NCBI GenBank assembly: GCA_963205075.1
Contig: CAUJIU010000054.1
Coordinates: forward strand, 1-64,000
Direction: 5' to 3'
DNA: 64,000 nucleotides
Origin: Pseudomonadota bacterium
GTDB lineage: Bacteria > Pseudomonadota > Alphaproteobacteria > Rhodobacterales > Rhodobacteraceae
In this document: piece after piece, positions 1-2,299 of the stretch
How the letters are laid out: every line of letters begins with the position of its first letter
How positions within the stretch are numbered: position 1 is the first letter of the stretch
Translations under genes and position numbers: made by a program
The notes under the pieces: generated by a model
Told to the model about the DNA's origin: nothing
The model's input: only the letters and a program-made list of their open reading frames with translations
Database searches by the model: none

Positions 1-381
1 CCCGCCGTGCCGCTGCGCGTGGCAATCGGCTCGGCCACCGCATTCCTTGCCGCCCAGTTGCTGGACGTGAGCGTGTTCAACCGCCTGCGGGCGGGCAACT
101 GGTGGCGCGCGCCGCTGGTGTCGACCCTGTTCAGTTCGACCGCCGACACGGTGATCTTCTTTTCCATCGCGTTCTCCGCCACTCTCGGCGTCTTCGGGGC
201 AACCGCAAACGACCAGATCTCCTGGGCCTGGGAAGCGGCGCCTTTTCTGACCACCGGCCCAGAGGCACCGCTCTGGGTTTCGCTCGCAGTTGCCGACTGG
301 GGGGTCAAACTCGCCATCGCGATGTTTGCGCTGGTGCCGTTTCGGGTGATTGTTGGCAGAATGCTGCAACGCGCGAATTGA
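1..381 (+). CDS. yhhQ: Queuosine precursor transporter, YhhQ/VUT family (5' end missing)
   Basis: The frame enters from the left edge, so the N-terminus and true start lie outside; 126 codons remain and end at TGA. The family imports queuosine precursors such as preQ0 or preQ1 across the inner membrane for tRNA modification. Family features visible are LLDVSVFNRLR, an STADTVIFFSIAF membrane segment, and a last hydrophobic helix ending in a basic tail (VIVGRMLQRAN). Hydrophobic segments alternate with short loops as expected for the C-terminal half. No queuosine genes adjoin it in the window. The first GTG, at position 7, is an internal Val codon and not a start. Confidence 0.85.
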   Translation, partial: PAVPLRVAIGSATAFLAAQLLDVSVFNRLRAGNWWRAPLVSTLFSSTADTVIFFSIAFSATLGVFGATANDQISWAWEAAPFLTTGPEAPLWVSLAVADWGVKLAIAMFALVPFRVIVGRMLQRAN

Positions 382-451
382 TCGCTTCTAGTTGTGTATT
401 TTAATTTGACATACACCAAATCTGTGCGACCTTGACCTCAGGCGAAACACA

Positions 452-469
452 AGAAAGGAGGTGATCCAG
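452..469 (+). promoter_or_regulatory. Full-length anti-SD complement serving as ribosome binding site
   Basis: The 18 bases AGAAAGGAGGTGATCCAG are the exact reverse complement of the conserved 16S rRNA 3' end of alphaproteobacteria (CTGGATCACCTCCTTTCT). Ordinary sites match 4-7 bases. The core GGAGG lies 7 nt before the GTG at 469, so it can act as an ordinary SD, but the match runs through the spacer to the first base of the start codon. The 16S tail is quoted from general knowledge; no 16S gene is in the window. Confidence 0.8.
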
Positions 470-525
470 TGTCGAGAAAGAGATTGGAGAATTGCGTCGG
501 GACAGCTTGGGGGGGATGCAGCTGA
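469..525 (+). CDS. Putative 18-residue leader peptide
   Basis: GTG start, 18 codons, TGA stop; predicted peptide MSRKRLENCVGTAWGGCS. It is too short for routine gene calling but sits directly behind the strongest possible SD. The peptide has a basic N-terminus, two Cys (9 and 17) and one Trp, but no run of one amino acid of the sort used by classical attenuators. The ORF ends upstream of G/C-rich hairpin material and a terminator, as in a leader-peptide unit or a dual-function sRNA. I know of no named family for it. The alternative is that only the SD matters and the ORF merely lets ribosomes load. Confidence 0.5.
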   Translation: MSRKRLENCVGTAWGGCS

Positions 526-576
526 GGCAGCCCTTGGCTGACTACCAACCCCGGGTGGGTCTGACCTAACCGACCA

Positions 577-584
577 CACCTCCT
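577..584 (+). promoter_or_regulatory. Anti-SD mimic (CACCTCCT) facing the leader SD
   Basis: CACCTCCT is perfectly complementary to AGGAGGTG at 456-463 (8 bp) and also identical to the core of the 16S tail. A nearby TTTC (589-592) can pair with GAAA beside the SD after a small bulge. If the RNA folds this way, the SD is hidden; if a 30S subunit binds the SD, the mimic is freed just before the terminator. This is a base-pairing prediction only. Confidence 0.45.
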
Positions 585-593
585 GAACTTTCG

Positions 594-625
594 AAGGGTC
601 GTCCCAACTCGGGGCGGCCCTTTTT
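594..625 (+). terminator. Intrinsic terminator of the leader unit
   Basis: The stem AGGGTCGTCCC (595-605) pairs with GGGGCGGCCCT (611-621), with two G-U pairs and a five-base AACTC loop, and is followed by a run of five T (621-625). It lies 71 bases before the arfB start, so arfB either has its own promoter in the short remaining gap or depends on readthrough. Confidence 0.8.
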
Positions 626-695
626 GTTGCGAAATTTTCGCTGATGCGCGAGAAATCGCGACCCGCGTCTGGACAGAACCGAAGGAAGCGCCCCG

Positions 696-1115
696 ATGGG
701 ACTGCGCGTCACCGAAGACATCGAGATCGAGGATTGGGAGCTGACCGAGCAATTCGTCCGCGCCTCGGGGCCGGGCGGGCAGAACGTCAACAAGGTCTCG
801 ACCGCGGTCGAGCTGCGCTTCGAGGCCGAGCGCTCGCCCAACCTGCCCGATCCGGTCAAGCGCCGCCTGCGCCGCCTTGCCGGCAGCCGCTGGACCACCG
901 AGGGCGCCATCGTGCTGTTCGTGCAGGACACCCGCAGCCAGATCCGCAACCGCGAACTGGCGCGCGAGCGGCTGGCCGAGCTGATCCGCAAGGCCACCGT
1001 CACCCCCAAGCGCCGCGTGGCCACCAAGCCGACCTATGGCAGCGTCAGGCGGCGGCTCGAGGCCAAGAAGGTGCGCGGCGAGGTCAAGGCGCTGCGCGGC
1101 AAGGTCGATGAATAG
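696..1115 (+). CDS. arfB: Peptidyl-tRNA hydrolase ArfB (alternative ribosome rescue factor B)
   Basis: A 139-residue class-I release-factor-like protein. It enters stalled ribosomes lacking a stop codon and hydrolyses the peptidyl-tRNA. The catalytic GGQ is at residues 27-29 within ASGPGGQNVNKVS, and the C-terminus (about residues 100-139) is a Lys/Arg-rich tail (RRRLEAKKVRGEVKALRGK), which in this family occupies the empty mRNA channel. Length matches the roughly 140-residue family. ATG at 696 follows GAAGGAAG. It lies downstream of the unusual leader unit and converges on the cation-efflux gene with a 3-nt gap. Confidence 0.93.
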   Translation: MGLRVTEDIEIEDWELTEQFVRASGPGGQNVNKVSTAVELRFEAERSPNLPDPVKRRLRRLAGSRWTTEGAIVLFVQDTRSQIRNRELARERLAELIRKATVTPKRRVATKPTYGSVRRRLEAKKVRGEVKALRGKVDE

Positions 1116-1118
1116 GGC

Positions 1119-1796
1119 CTAGCCATGCCCGTGGTCATGCCCGTGCTTATGCCCGTGGTCATGCCCGTGCTGATGCTGGTGAGGCACGCCGGTCCGCCGC
1201 TCGGCCAGCGCCTGCCGCACGATCTGGAACGACGATGACAGGAACAGCGACGCCATGATGGCCGCCACGATCAGGTCGGGCCAGCCGGTCGCCGTGCCCC
1301 AGACGCCCAAGGCAGCGATCATCACCGCCACGTTGCCGATGGCGTCATTGCGCGAGCACAGCCAGACCGAGCGCACATTGGCGTCGCCATCCTTGTAGCG
1401 CACCAGCAGCAACACGCTGGCCAGATTGGCCGCCAGCGCCAGAAAGCCGATCGCCCCCATGATCTCGGCCTGCGGCACCCCGATGTAGAACACCCGGTAG
1501 AGCGTTGCGCCCAGCACCCACAGGCCCATGGCAAGAAGCGAGATGCCCTTGGCCAGCGCCACGTTGGACCGCACCCGCAGCGACATGCCGATCACCCCGA
1601 GCGACAGGCCATAGGTCAGCGCGTCGCCCAGAAAATCGAGTGCGTCGGCCTGCAACGCCTGCGACCGCGCCAGCTGGCCCGCGCCCATCTCGACCGCGAA
1701 CATGGCGGCGTTGATGACGATCACCGCCCAGAGCCGGCGCTTGTAGTCGCTCGAGACGCCCTCGAAACTGGCGGAATGGTCGCATTTGGCTGACAC
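1119..1796 (-). CDS. Cation diffusion facilitator (CDF) heavy-metal efflux protein
   Basis: A 225-residue inner-membrane protein with about six hydrophobic segments and a His-rich C-terminus (HQHQHGHDHGHKHGHDHGHG) likely to bind divalent metal. Typical metal-site patterns are visible: DALDFLGDAL in the second helix and SRNDAIGNVAVM in the fifth. It lacks the large cytoplasmic C-terminal domain of full-length CDF proteins, so it belongs to the short subgroup. The start is GTG at 1796, behind GAGG, about 30 nt downstream of a MerR-type promoter read from this strand. The metal (Zn, Co, Cd or Ni) cannot be told from sequence. It is divergent from its probable regulator at 1865. Confidence 0.85.
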   Translation of the reverse strand: MSAKCDHSASFEGVSSDYKRRLWAVIVINAAMFAVEMGAGQLARSQALQADALDFLGDALTYGLSLGVIGMSLRVRSNVALAKGISLLAMGLWVLGATLYRVFYIGVPQAEIMGAIGFLALAANLASVLLLVRYKDGDANVRSVWLCSRNDAIGNVAVMIAALGVWGTATGWPDLIVAAIMASLFLSSSFQIVRQALAERRTGVPHQHQHGHDHGHKHGHDHGHG

Positions 1797-1825
1797 GGGG
1801 CCTCGCTTTCATTTTCGTTCGACTC

Positions 1826-1856
1826 ACTCTACTCTCTCTAGTCACTAGAGCTTCAA
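1826..1856 (-). promoter_or_regulatory. MerR-type promoter/operator with 19-bp spacer
   Basis: Read on the minus strand: -35 TTGAAG (1856-1851), a 19-nt spacer, and -10 TAGAGT (1831-1826). The spacer holds a perfect dyad CTCTAGT-G-ACTAGAG (1836-1850). An over-long spacer with a central dyad is the hallmark of promoters that MerR proteins untwist when metal is bound. It drives the efflux gene and overlaps the region just before the regulator's ATG, so it also fits autoregulation. Confidence 0.8.
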
Positions 1857-1864
1857 GAGGTTTC

Positions 1865-2299
1865 ATGTATTCCATCGGAGATCTTTCCCGCCGCACCGGG
1901 GTCAAGGTGCCGACCATCCGCTATTACGAGCAGATGGGCCTGTTGCAGGCGCCCGAACGCACGCAAGGCAACCAGCGGCGCTATGGCAAGAGCGGGCTGG
2001 CCCGGCTGGGCTTCATCCGCCACGCCCGCGACCTGGGCTTTTCCATCGAGGCGATCTCGGCCCTGATCGGGCTGCAAGACCACCCCGACCACTCCTGCGA
2101 ACCCGCCACCAGCCTCGCCCGCACCCAGCTGGAAGACGTGCGGTCAAGGATCAGGCGGTTGCAGAGTCTGGAGGTCGAGCTGACCCGCATAGCCGAAGGT
2201 TGTCAGGGCGACGGCCGGTCCTCGGACTGCTATGTGCTTGATTCGCTGGCCAGTCACGAGTTCTGCACCAGTGACCACAAGGGCGGTGCCGGGCTCTAG
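1865..2299 (+). CDS. MerR-family metal-responsive regulator
   Basis: 144 residues. The N-terminal winged helix carries [22 protein letters not shown], followed by a dimerisation helix and a C-terminal region with Cys residues ([25 protein letters not shown]) that could form the metal site, resembling CadR/PbrR/ZntR-type sensors. The start ATG is 5 nt behind AAGAGG. It is divergent from the cation-efflux gene and the shared gap holds the dyad-containing promoter, so it most likely controls that gene. Its stop overlaps the pncB stop on the other strand by a few bases (TCTAGA region). Confidence 0.88.

Follow-up and report, generated by a model that had tools for sequence, protein, structure and literature searches.

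The RNA of known family closest to the one analysed here is CC2171 (Rfam RF01867), a Caulobacter sRNA that is said to come from Landt 2008. MH_s33 of Mesorhizobium huakuii also belongs with CC2171 (PMC5596092), and in the literature outside the original description we found no ORF described for CC2171. In the DUF1127 operon of S. meliloti, the ribosome binding site of a uORF pairs with nearby codons and the uORF controls the DUF1127 gene; translation and RNA sequence matter, not the peptide, and its authors consider it suited to sense ribosome shortage (PMC12218461). Translated sORFs in small RNAs are also found in rnTrpL/peTrpL, in other dual-function or small-coding sRNAs (PMC10117765, PMC7298713) and in Pos19 (PMC5036791). 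Long Shine-Dalgarno (SD) sequences before weak starts and short ORFs are found in the extended-SD mRNAs of Staphylococcus aureus (PMC13009471), and alphaproteobacteria contain sRNAs with CCUCCUCCC (anti-SD) loops (PMC3927594). The Paracoccus denitrificans sRNAs 'intergenic 60/100/134' (PMC5107571) were considered as possible counterparts of the RNA analysed here.

We analysed a stretch of 64,000 nucleotides from a Rhodobacteraceae genome (the window; all coordinates are those of the window), near the start of which lies what looks like an RNA gene with an extended SD in its front part. RF01867 matches this RNA over the full model length with 37 bits (E 1.9e-6), under the gathering score of 75; the match was absent when window 470-640 was searched and is lost without the first 18 nt. 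RF01867-like matches were found in 61 of 289 alphaproteobacterial genomes, with the control Caulobacter vibrioides over the cut-off, and second matches in several genomes were mostly chance matches without an SD. Both RNAs have the 5' block CAACAAnnGAAAGGAGGTGATCCnDTGTC (extended SD, start codon, TC), and they resemble each other in promoter spacing, RNA length, a short ORF straight after the SD, a terminator of similar sequence and mostly a single copy per genome. In contrast to the window RNA, CC2171 has codons 2-4 (TCATTGTC) that pair with GACAATGG ahead of the terminator, and CC2171-type RNAs leave the SD mostly open, whereas the window RNA pairs it with a 3' anti-SD. A previous reading made from the sequence alone (the sequence-only reading) had not recognised a named RNA here; the score does stay under the gathering threshold, but the window RNA is a distant, divergent relative of CC2171, by a match that rests on the SD block, and thus does not lack a name altogether. 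All Rfam families, 6S, 4.5S and tmRNA included, gave 0 gathering-score matches in the window, and ARAGORN found no tmRNA.

The DUF1127 uORF, an alphaproteobacterial short ORF in which RNA sequence and translation count, offers a helpful precedent for the window RNA; however, it acts in cis as the leader of the gene under its control and terminates prematurely at several sites, whereas the window RNA appears standalone with an intrinsic terminator. rnTrpL/peTrpL act through the peptide and known targets, and peTrpL is leaderless; in contrast, the peptide of the window RNA is unconstrained and its ORF has a full-tail SD. The extended SDs of S. aureus are a genome-wide habit, whereas the window type occurs at one site per genome and covers the whole tail. 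In the CCUCCUCCC-loop sRNAs the anti-SD sits in exposed hairpin loops, whereas in the window RNA the anti-SD (577-583) forms one strand of a helix with the SD.

The extended Shine-Dalgarno sequence and the RNA gene around it

The features of the locus are as follows.

1..381, + strand: yhhQ / Vut_1 transporter (PF02592), truncated at the start of the contig; kept upstream of the RNA only in Rhodobacterales
406..411, + strand: probable -35 element TTGACA; TTG spacing conserved in homologues
452..469, + strand: extended Shine-Dalgarno, exact 16S-tail complement; conserved core 453-467; 29/30 orthologous loci
457..463, + strand: helix 1, SD strand GGAGGTG, pairs with 577-583; 97.6% of cells paired in 36 sequences
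465..488, + strand: helix 2, start-codon hairpin (465-473 with 480-488); 97.2% of cells paired
469..525, + strand: 18-codon ORF MSRKRLENCVGTAWGGCS, GUG start, UGA stop; length 18 in 27/29 orthologues; pN/pS 0.79
503..557, + strand: helix 4 (503-511 with 549-557), 5' strand in the ORF, 3' strand past the stop
577..583, + strand: helix 1, 3' strand, internal anti-SD CACCTCC, pairs with SD 457-463
594..625, + strand: intrinsic terminator, G+C-rich stem and U run; folds; helix 7 with both-side changes in 8/9 pairs
696..1115, + strand: arfB, RF-1 domain ribosome rescue factor (PF00472); downstream neighbour in most Rhodobacterales

We found that positions 452-469 (AGAAAGGAGGTGATCCAG) are perfectly complementary to the 3' tail of the 16S rRNA and that the last base of this 18-mer (469) is the first base of the GUG start codon (469-471), so the perfect 18-nt anti-SD complement running into a start codon that the sequence-only reading reported is indeed there. 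It is the sole site with three or fewer mismatches in the 64 kb window, where the chance expectation is 0.03. The 16S end of the window's own genome was not found in its incomplete assembly, and the tail sequence was taken from relatives for that reason: among 37 genomes searched, three have the partner GGCTGGATCACCTCCTTTCT as a 16S-type end, two of these three belonging to the window's family, and CTGGATCACCTCCTTTCT, the partner of AGAAAGGAGGTGATCCAG, was seen as a 16S-type end in three relatives. The core conserved across the class, GAAAGGAGGTGATCC (15 nt, 453-467), is shorter than 18 nt, and its near-invariant part is GAAAGGAGGTG (11 nt); the A at 452 is not conserved (A in 17/177 sequences). 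In the 16S secondary structure, the stretch that the 15-nt core matches is the single-stranded tail that follows helix 45 up to the 3' end. The commonest variant, GATCC to GGTCC, retains a G-U pair with the tail. Because some genera have altered or shortened the SD past the 11-nt core (GGTGCCTATG, GGTGGCCAGTG, GGTGCTTCAGTG), 15 nt is the commonest state rather than an absolute need. The computed duplex of SD and 16S tail has -32.6 kcal/mol, compared to -8.7 for bare GGAGG. The SD had also been called unusually long, and this extends to the class as the 15-nt core, tied to a conserved start, stop and ORF length. A chance match or antisense 16S fragment was rejected because antisense 16S would go on with AGCC, and recurrence with a start codon, one per genome, also rules it out.

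The SD and ORF look like the front end of an independent RNA of ~180 nt with its own promoter and intrinsic terminator. Of 160 homologues from across the class, 93 have a TTG 47-50 nt ahead of the SD, as compared to 5-21 of 160 in other 4-nt bins; in Rhodobacterales the count is 38 of 41. This spacing fits a start site 10-14 nt ahead of the SD, and the transcript start of the window RNA is predicted near 440-445. The sigma-70 scan listed no site at 406-411, and a simple terminator scan missed 594-625. Nearly all homologues have an intrinsic terminator, mostly 140-200 nt past the SD. The fold of 440-627, which ends in a strong intrinsic terminator, reaches -85.2 kcal/mol (z -3.9), and none of 200 shuffles was as good.

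Distribution and gene neighbourhood

When we searched 61 genomes at the DNA level, we found matches in 30. Of 289 alphaproteobacteria, 44 have the pattern GAAAGGAGGTGATCCNDTG, one copy each, and its reversed control gave 0 matches. An exact 14-nt version, AAAGGAGGTGATCCNDTG, has a single copy in each of 45 of the 86 alphaproteobacterial genomes and is absent from all 213 other Pseudomonadota, the 86/213 split being a hand count from the result table. A scan of 84,980 named genomes gave at least 119 loci, nearly all Alphaproteobacteria among the matches listed; the orders among these are Rhodobacterales, Sphingomonadales, Rhizobiales, Caulobacterales, Acetobacterales and Rhodospirillales. The matches listed also include two records labelled Gemmatimonadota, with TTG and GTG starts and 20-21 codons, which may reflect a binning error, transfer or chance. 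At least one genome has two copies, one MSHC-type and one MSHG-type.

Because the pattern searches require the SD, we used an unbiased set, the region past yhhQ in 30 Rhodobacteraceae genera picked by the yhhQ protein alone. The 11-nt core with a start codon ([ACG]AAAGGAGGTG; scored as the 11-nt core or one base off) is present in 29 of the 30 genera, 58-90 nt past the yhhQ match, and the ORF has exactly 18 codons at 27 of these 29 loci; in the 30th genus, yhhQ directly adjoins arfB. The sequence-only reading, which would have fallen had related genomes lacked the SD and ORF at this locus, stands on this point. Between orders, homology appears to lie mainly in the SD/5' block, and also in promoter spacing, layout and mostly single copies.

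In Rhodobacterales, yhhQ is upstream at 26/26 near loci and 40/42 loci of the wider set, and arfB is downstream at 21/26 and 31/42. Sphingomonadales copies have TlyA-like and branched-chain aminotransferase-like genes (named by eye from sequence) beside them in about half, CC2171-type copies have a yaiI-like gene in 9/49 and a dnaX-like gene in a few, and the MSSE group has no shared neighbour gene. Because the neighbours differ between orders, the RNA is not a cis element of one gene; a conserved downstream gene in the same transcript, as expected of a cis leader or uORF, was not found across orders. The ribosome-rescue gene to which the sequence-only reading drew attention is thus a kept neighbour within Rhodobacterales (31/42) but not the key to function, as other orders have different neighbours. 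A link to yhhQ or queuosine through the neighbour gene was rejected because the yhhQ neighbourhood occurs only in Rhodobacterales.

The window's genome has a second yhhQ copy (G000:C98:46800-47982), which is 97% identical and sits right at the end of a different contig; this suggests a strain mixture or broken assembly. Window 1119-2296 codes for a cation efflux protein (PF01545) whose C-terminus is rich in His and Gly; the gene runs divergently from that of a MerR regulator, and the two are an ordinary metal-resistance pair.

The SD pattern is found in seven IMG/VR contigs (L210-L216), and several of these copies are of the Bradyrhizobium type and lie close to a contig end, probably as the host flank of prophages. 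The copy in L214 adjoins a tyrosine integrase, and L215 is a 71-codon gene merely sharing the SD. A predicted viral contig (L216:7906-9778) ends in the RNA gene, with a 569-aa serine-recombinase-like gene beside it; its RNA matches a Brevundimonas copy (L173) from GAAAGG on, and the two differ immediately upstream of this point. Phages may integrate at the RNA gene.

The mini-ORF and the fold of the RNA

The mini-ORF runs from GUG (469-471) to TGA (523-525) and encodes the peptide as the sequence-only reading wrote it. Of 42 Rhodobacterales sequences, 41 have a stop at codon 19 (TGA 18, TAG 16, TAA 7), as do 25 of 26 Sphingomonadales; the ORF length is separately 18 in 25/26 Sphingomonadales and 14 in 9/10 Bradyrhizobium-type RNAs. 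Bases 2-3 of codon 19 are GA, AG or AA and never GG, where ~7 GG in 41 would be expected from base frequencies by simple arithmetic on sequences that are not independent, and bases 2 and 3 of this stop are unpaired in the consensus fold. Start codons across the class are GTG 95, ATG 61 and TTG 5; the search pattern admitted only these three, and the unbiased yhhQ-defined loci agree.

Divergence at codon positions 1, 2 and 3 is equal (0.273, 0.272 and 0.279 in 41 Rhodobacterales ORFs), and pN/pS is 0.79 in the 41 Rhodobacterales, 1.31 in Sphingomonadales (23 ORFs) and 2.84 in the Bradyrhizobium type (9 ORFs); these ratios are confounded by RNA pairing and so give no evidence for peptide selection, rather than showing neutrality. 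On these alignments the mini-ORF is selected as start, length and stop, with no sign of amino-acid-level selection. Set against dual-function sRNAs, its ORF is selected as a coding unit (start, stop, frame) and its peptide shows no purifying selection by pN/pS in the three groups. The regulatory peptide proposed by the sequence-only reading is therefore not borne out, and the purifying selection on which that reading also depended is seen for the SD, start, stop and length but not for the peptide. With start, stop and length kept but not the peptide, the RNA probably serves for the engagement of ribosomes and not for the production of a peptide.

At seven loci of the Bradyrhizobium/Tardiphaga type, we saw a 14-aa ORF, MSxxKRCHLAxxAR, in which the codons TGT CAC CTC double as an anti-SD. 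Where the peptide of this ORF is conserved, this looks like conservation of the RNA, and no occurrence of the peptide string was found in the papers searched.

In a structure alignment of 36 Rhodobacterales sequences (A1), a seven-helix structure pairs 91.4% of cells. Both-side changes occur at 21 pairs and in 90 cells, as compared to 13.0 and 34.0 in shuffles, and 0 of 500 shuffles reach these values. The structure collapses if slid by one column, a control that is partly favourable by construction because the structure was derived from the same alignment. In helix 1 the SD side is invariant, which is partly due to how the sequences were found, and changes in its partner mostly keep the pair, mainly by G-C/G-U exchange. 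The window's own copy has one mismatch in helix 2. Helices 3 and 4 pair ORF codons with sequence past the stop, helix 4 encloses a stop-codon hairpin (521-539), and both-side changes are found in 6/9 pairs of helix 4 and 3/6 of helix 5. In Rhodobacterales the fold is predicted to hide both the SD and the start codon.

For the window RNA, the predicted unpaired probability of the SD core is 0.54 before the anti-SD is transcribed and 0.006 after, and the computed cost of opening the SD is 13.1 kcal/mol, which pairing of the full SD (-32.6) would pay but GGAGG alone (-8.7 kcal/mol) would not. The median opening cost is 10.4 in Rhodobacterales, 9.1 in Bradyrhizobium-type RNAs and 4-5 elsewhere, where the SD is much more open; its median unpaired probability is 0.33-0.44 in Sphingomonadales and CC2171-type RNAs. 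An internal anti-SD throughout the class was considered and rejected, as support was confined to Rhodobacterales and Bradyrhizobium-type RNAs and the signal was weak elsewhere. Because the SD is weakly hidden in Sphingomonadales and CC2171-type RNAs and yet 15 nt are kept, SD caging is not the general reason for the length; in the modelled folds, caging is lineage-specific.

By eye, a conserved hairpin whose loop is CAGC/CAAC (GGCARCC), positioned over or close to the stop codon (window 519-540), recurs in several orders, in and out of frame, hinting at an RNA-level motif common beyond Rhodobacterales.

Explanations and their meaning

The explanation we favour, to which we give not quite an even chance, is a translated, structured regulatory RNA that acts by ribosome capture and movement, sensing initiation or free 30S. 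The trapping or sensing of 30S that the sequence-only reading raised thus ranks among the better explanations. In favour of the explanation are the conserved SD and start codon at the yhhQ-defined loci, the fixed stop and ORF length with an unconstrained peptide, the fold with its covariation, the energy balance of SD opening, and the promoter and terminator in most or nearly all copies. We infer a mechanism for the window RNA of 30S capture, ribosome-dependent opening and an effect in trans. The 30S subunit would bind via the whole 16S tail with enough strength either to load onto nascent RNA before the 3' anti-SD emerges or to invade the finished fold, and the ribosome would translate the fixed-length ORF and halt at the hairpin over codon 19. 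Its passage would unwind helices 1-4 and release 3' segments for base-pairing or decay factors, the released segment in Rhodobacterales being the C-rich anti-SD strand. The state or lifetime of the RNA would then be a readout of 30S initiation readiness, and the peptide would be a by-product. Several points count against this explanation: a short leader with a strong SD could be mere translational efficiency, Sphingomonadales and CC2171-type RNAs keep the 15-nt SD nonetheless when it is weakly hidden, beyond Rhodobacterales and Bradyrhizobium there is only a weak anti-SD signal, and homology between orders lies mainly in the SD block.

It is possible, if unlikely, that the RNA is simply a trap, binding or holding 30S (or the maturing 16S tail) by the whole-tail duplex, with the ORF as the ribosome's exit. 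The complementarity does stop about where the single-stranded tail ends (core GAAAGGAGGTGATCC, preceding A in 17/177), the SD is the one feature common to every order, and the GGTCC variant retains its G-U pair with the tail. However, a trap would have to be roughly as abundant as free 30S, the pairing has lost its GATCC half in several genera, and a fixed stop and exact ORF length would be superfluous. The conserved start codon, stop codon and length likewise argue against an ordinary base-pairing sRNA with an incidental ORF, whose GGAGG-rich segment would be a seed or sponge for C-rich (anti-SD) sRNAs. That reading, which we consider quite improbable, draws on the look of an sRNA gene (promoter, 150-200 nt, terminator), on the listing of CC2171 as an sRNA and on the presence of CCUCCUCCC-loop sRNAs in alphaproteobacteria (PMC3927594), but the core matches the 16S tail through GATCC and the CCUCCUCCC loops are without GATCC.

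Gene order speaks for a leader or attenuator of arfB, in which mini-ORF translation sets read-through into arfB: arfB is downstream at 21/26 near and 31/42 wider Rhodobacterales loci, and in S. meliloti a uORF with an RBS that pairs with its own codons controls the DUF1127 gene (PMC12218461). In other orders, however, other genes lie downstream (dnaX-like, yaiI-like, aminotransferase-like, or none in common), nearly all copies are closed by a strong terminator and no anti-terminator pairing was found, and we give this explanation little credence. We think it very improbable that a small mRNA with a very strong SD makes a functional microprotein: MSR..LE..VGT is recognisable within Rhodobacterales, but the codons concerned make up helices 2 and 3, divergence is equal at the three codon positions (0.273, 0.272, 0.279) with pN/pS near or above 1, peptides are unrelated between orders and some genera have another 18-mer (MIIGKQEQ...).

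The most far-reaching reading is that the class-wide RNA has the conserved function of a sensor that reads free or newly matured 30S through the complete single-stranded tail, with the sequence-free, length-fixed ORF as a mechanical switch; this would be an undescribed kind of sensor, and we regard it as speculative and rather doubtful.

Ribosome availability is usually inferred via ppGpp and rRNA control. If the free-30S reading is true, this would be a bacterial RNA that gauges ribosome availability directly. Even if it is false, the locus shows cleanly that evolution can keep translation as an act (start, stop, length) while the peptide drifts, and the drifting peptide is a warning against taking such sORFs for microproteins. 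Taken together, these data widen a thinly documented Rfam entry, that of a Caulobacter sRNA, to an RNA of the whole class that is probably translated and whose mechanism can be tested.
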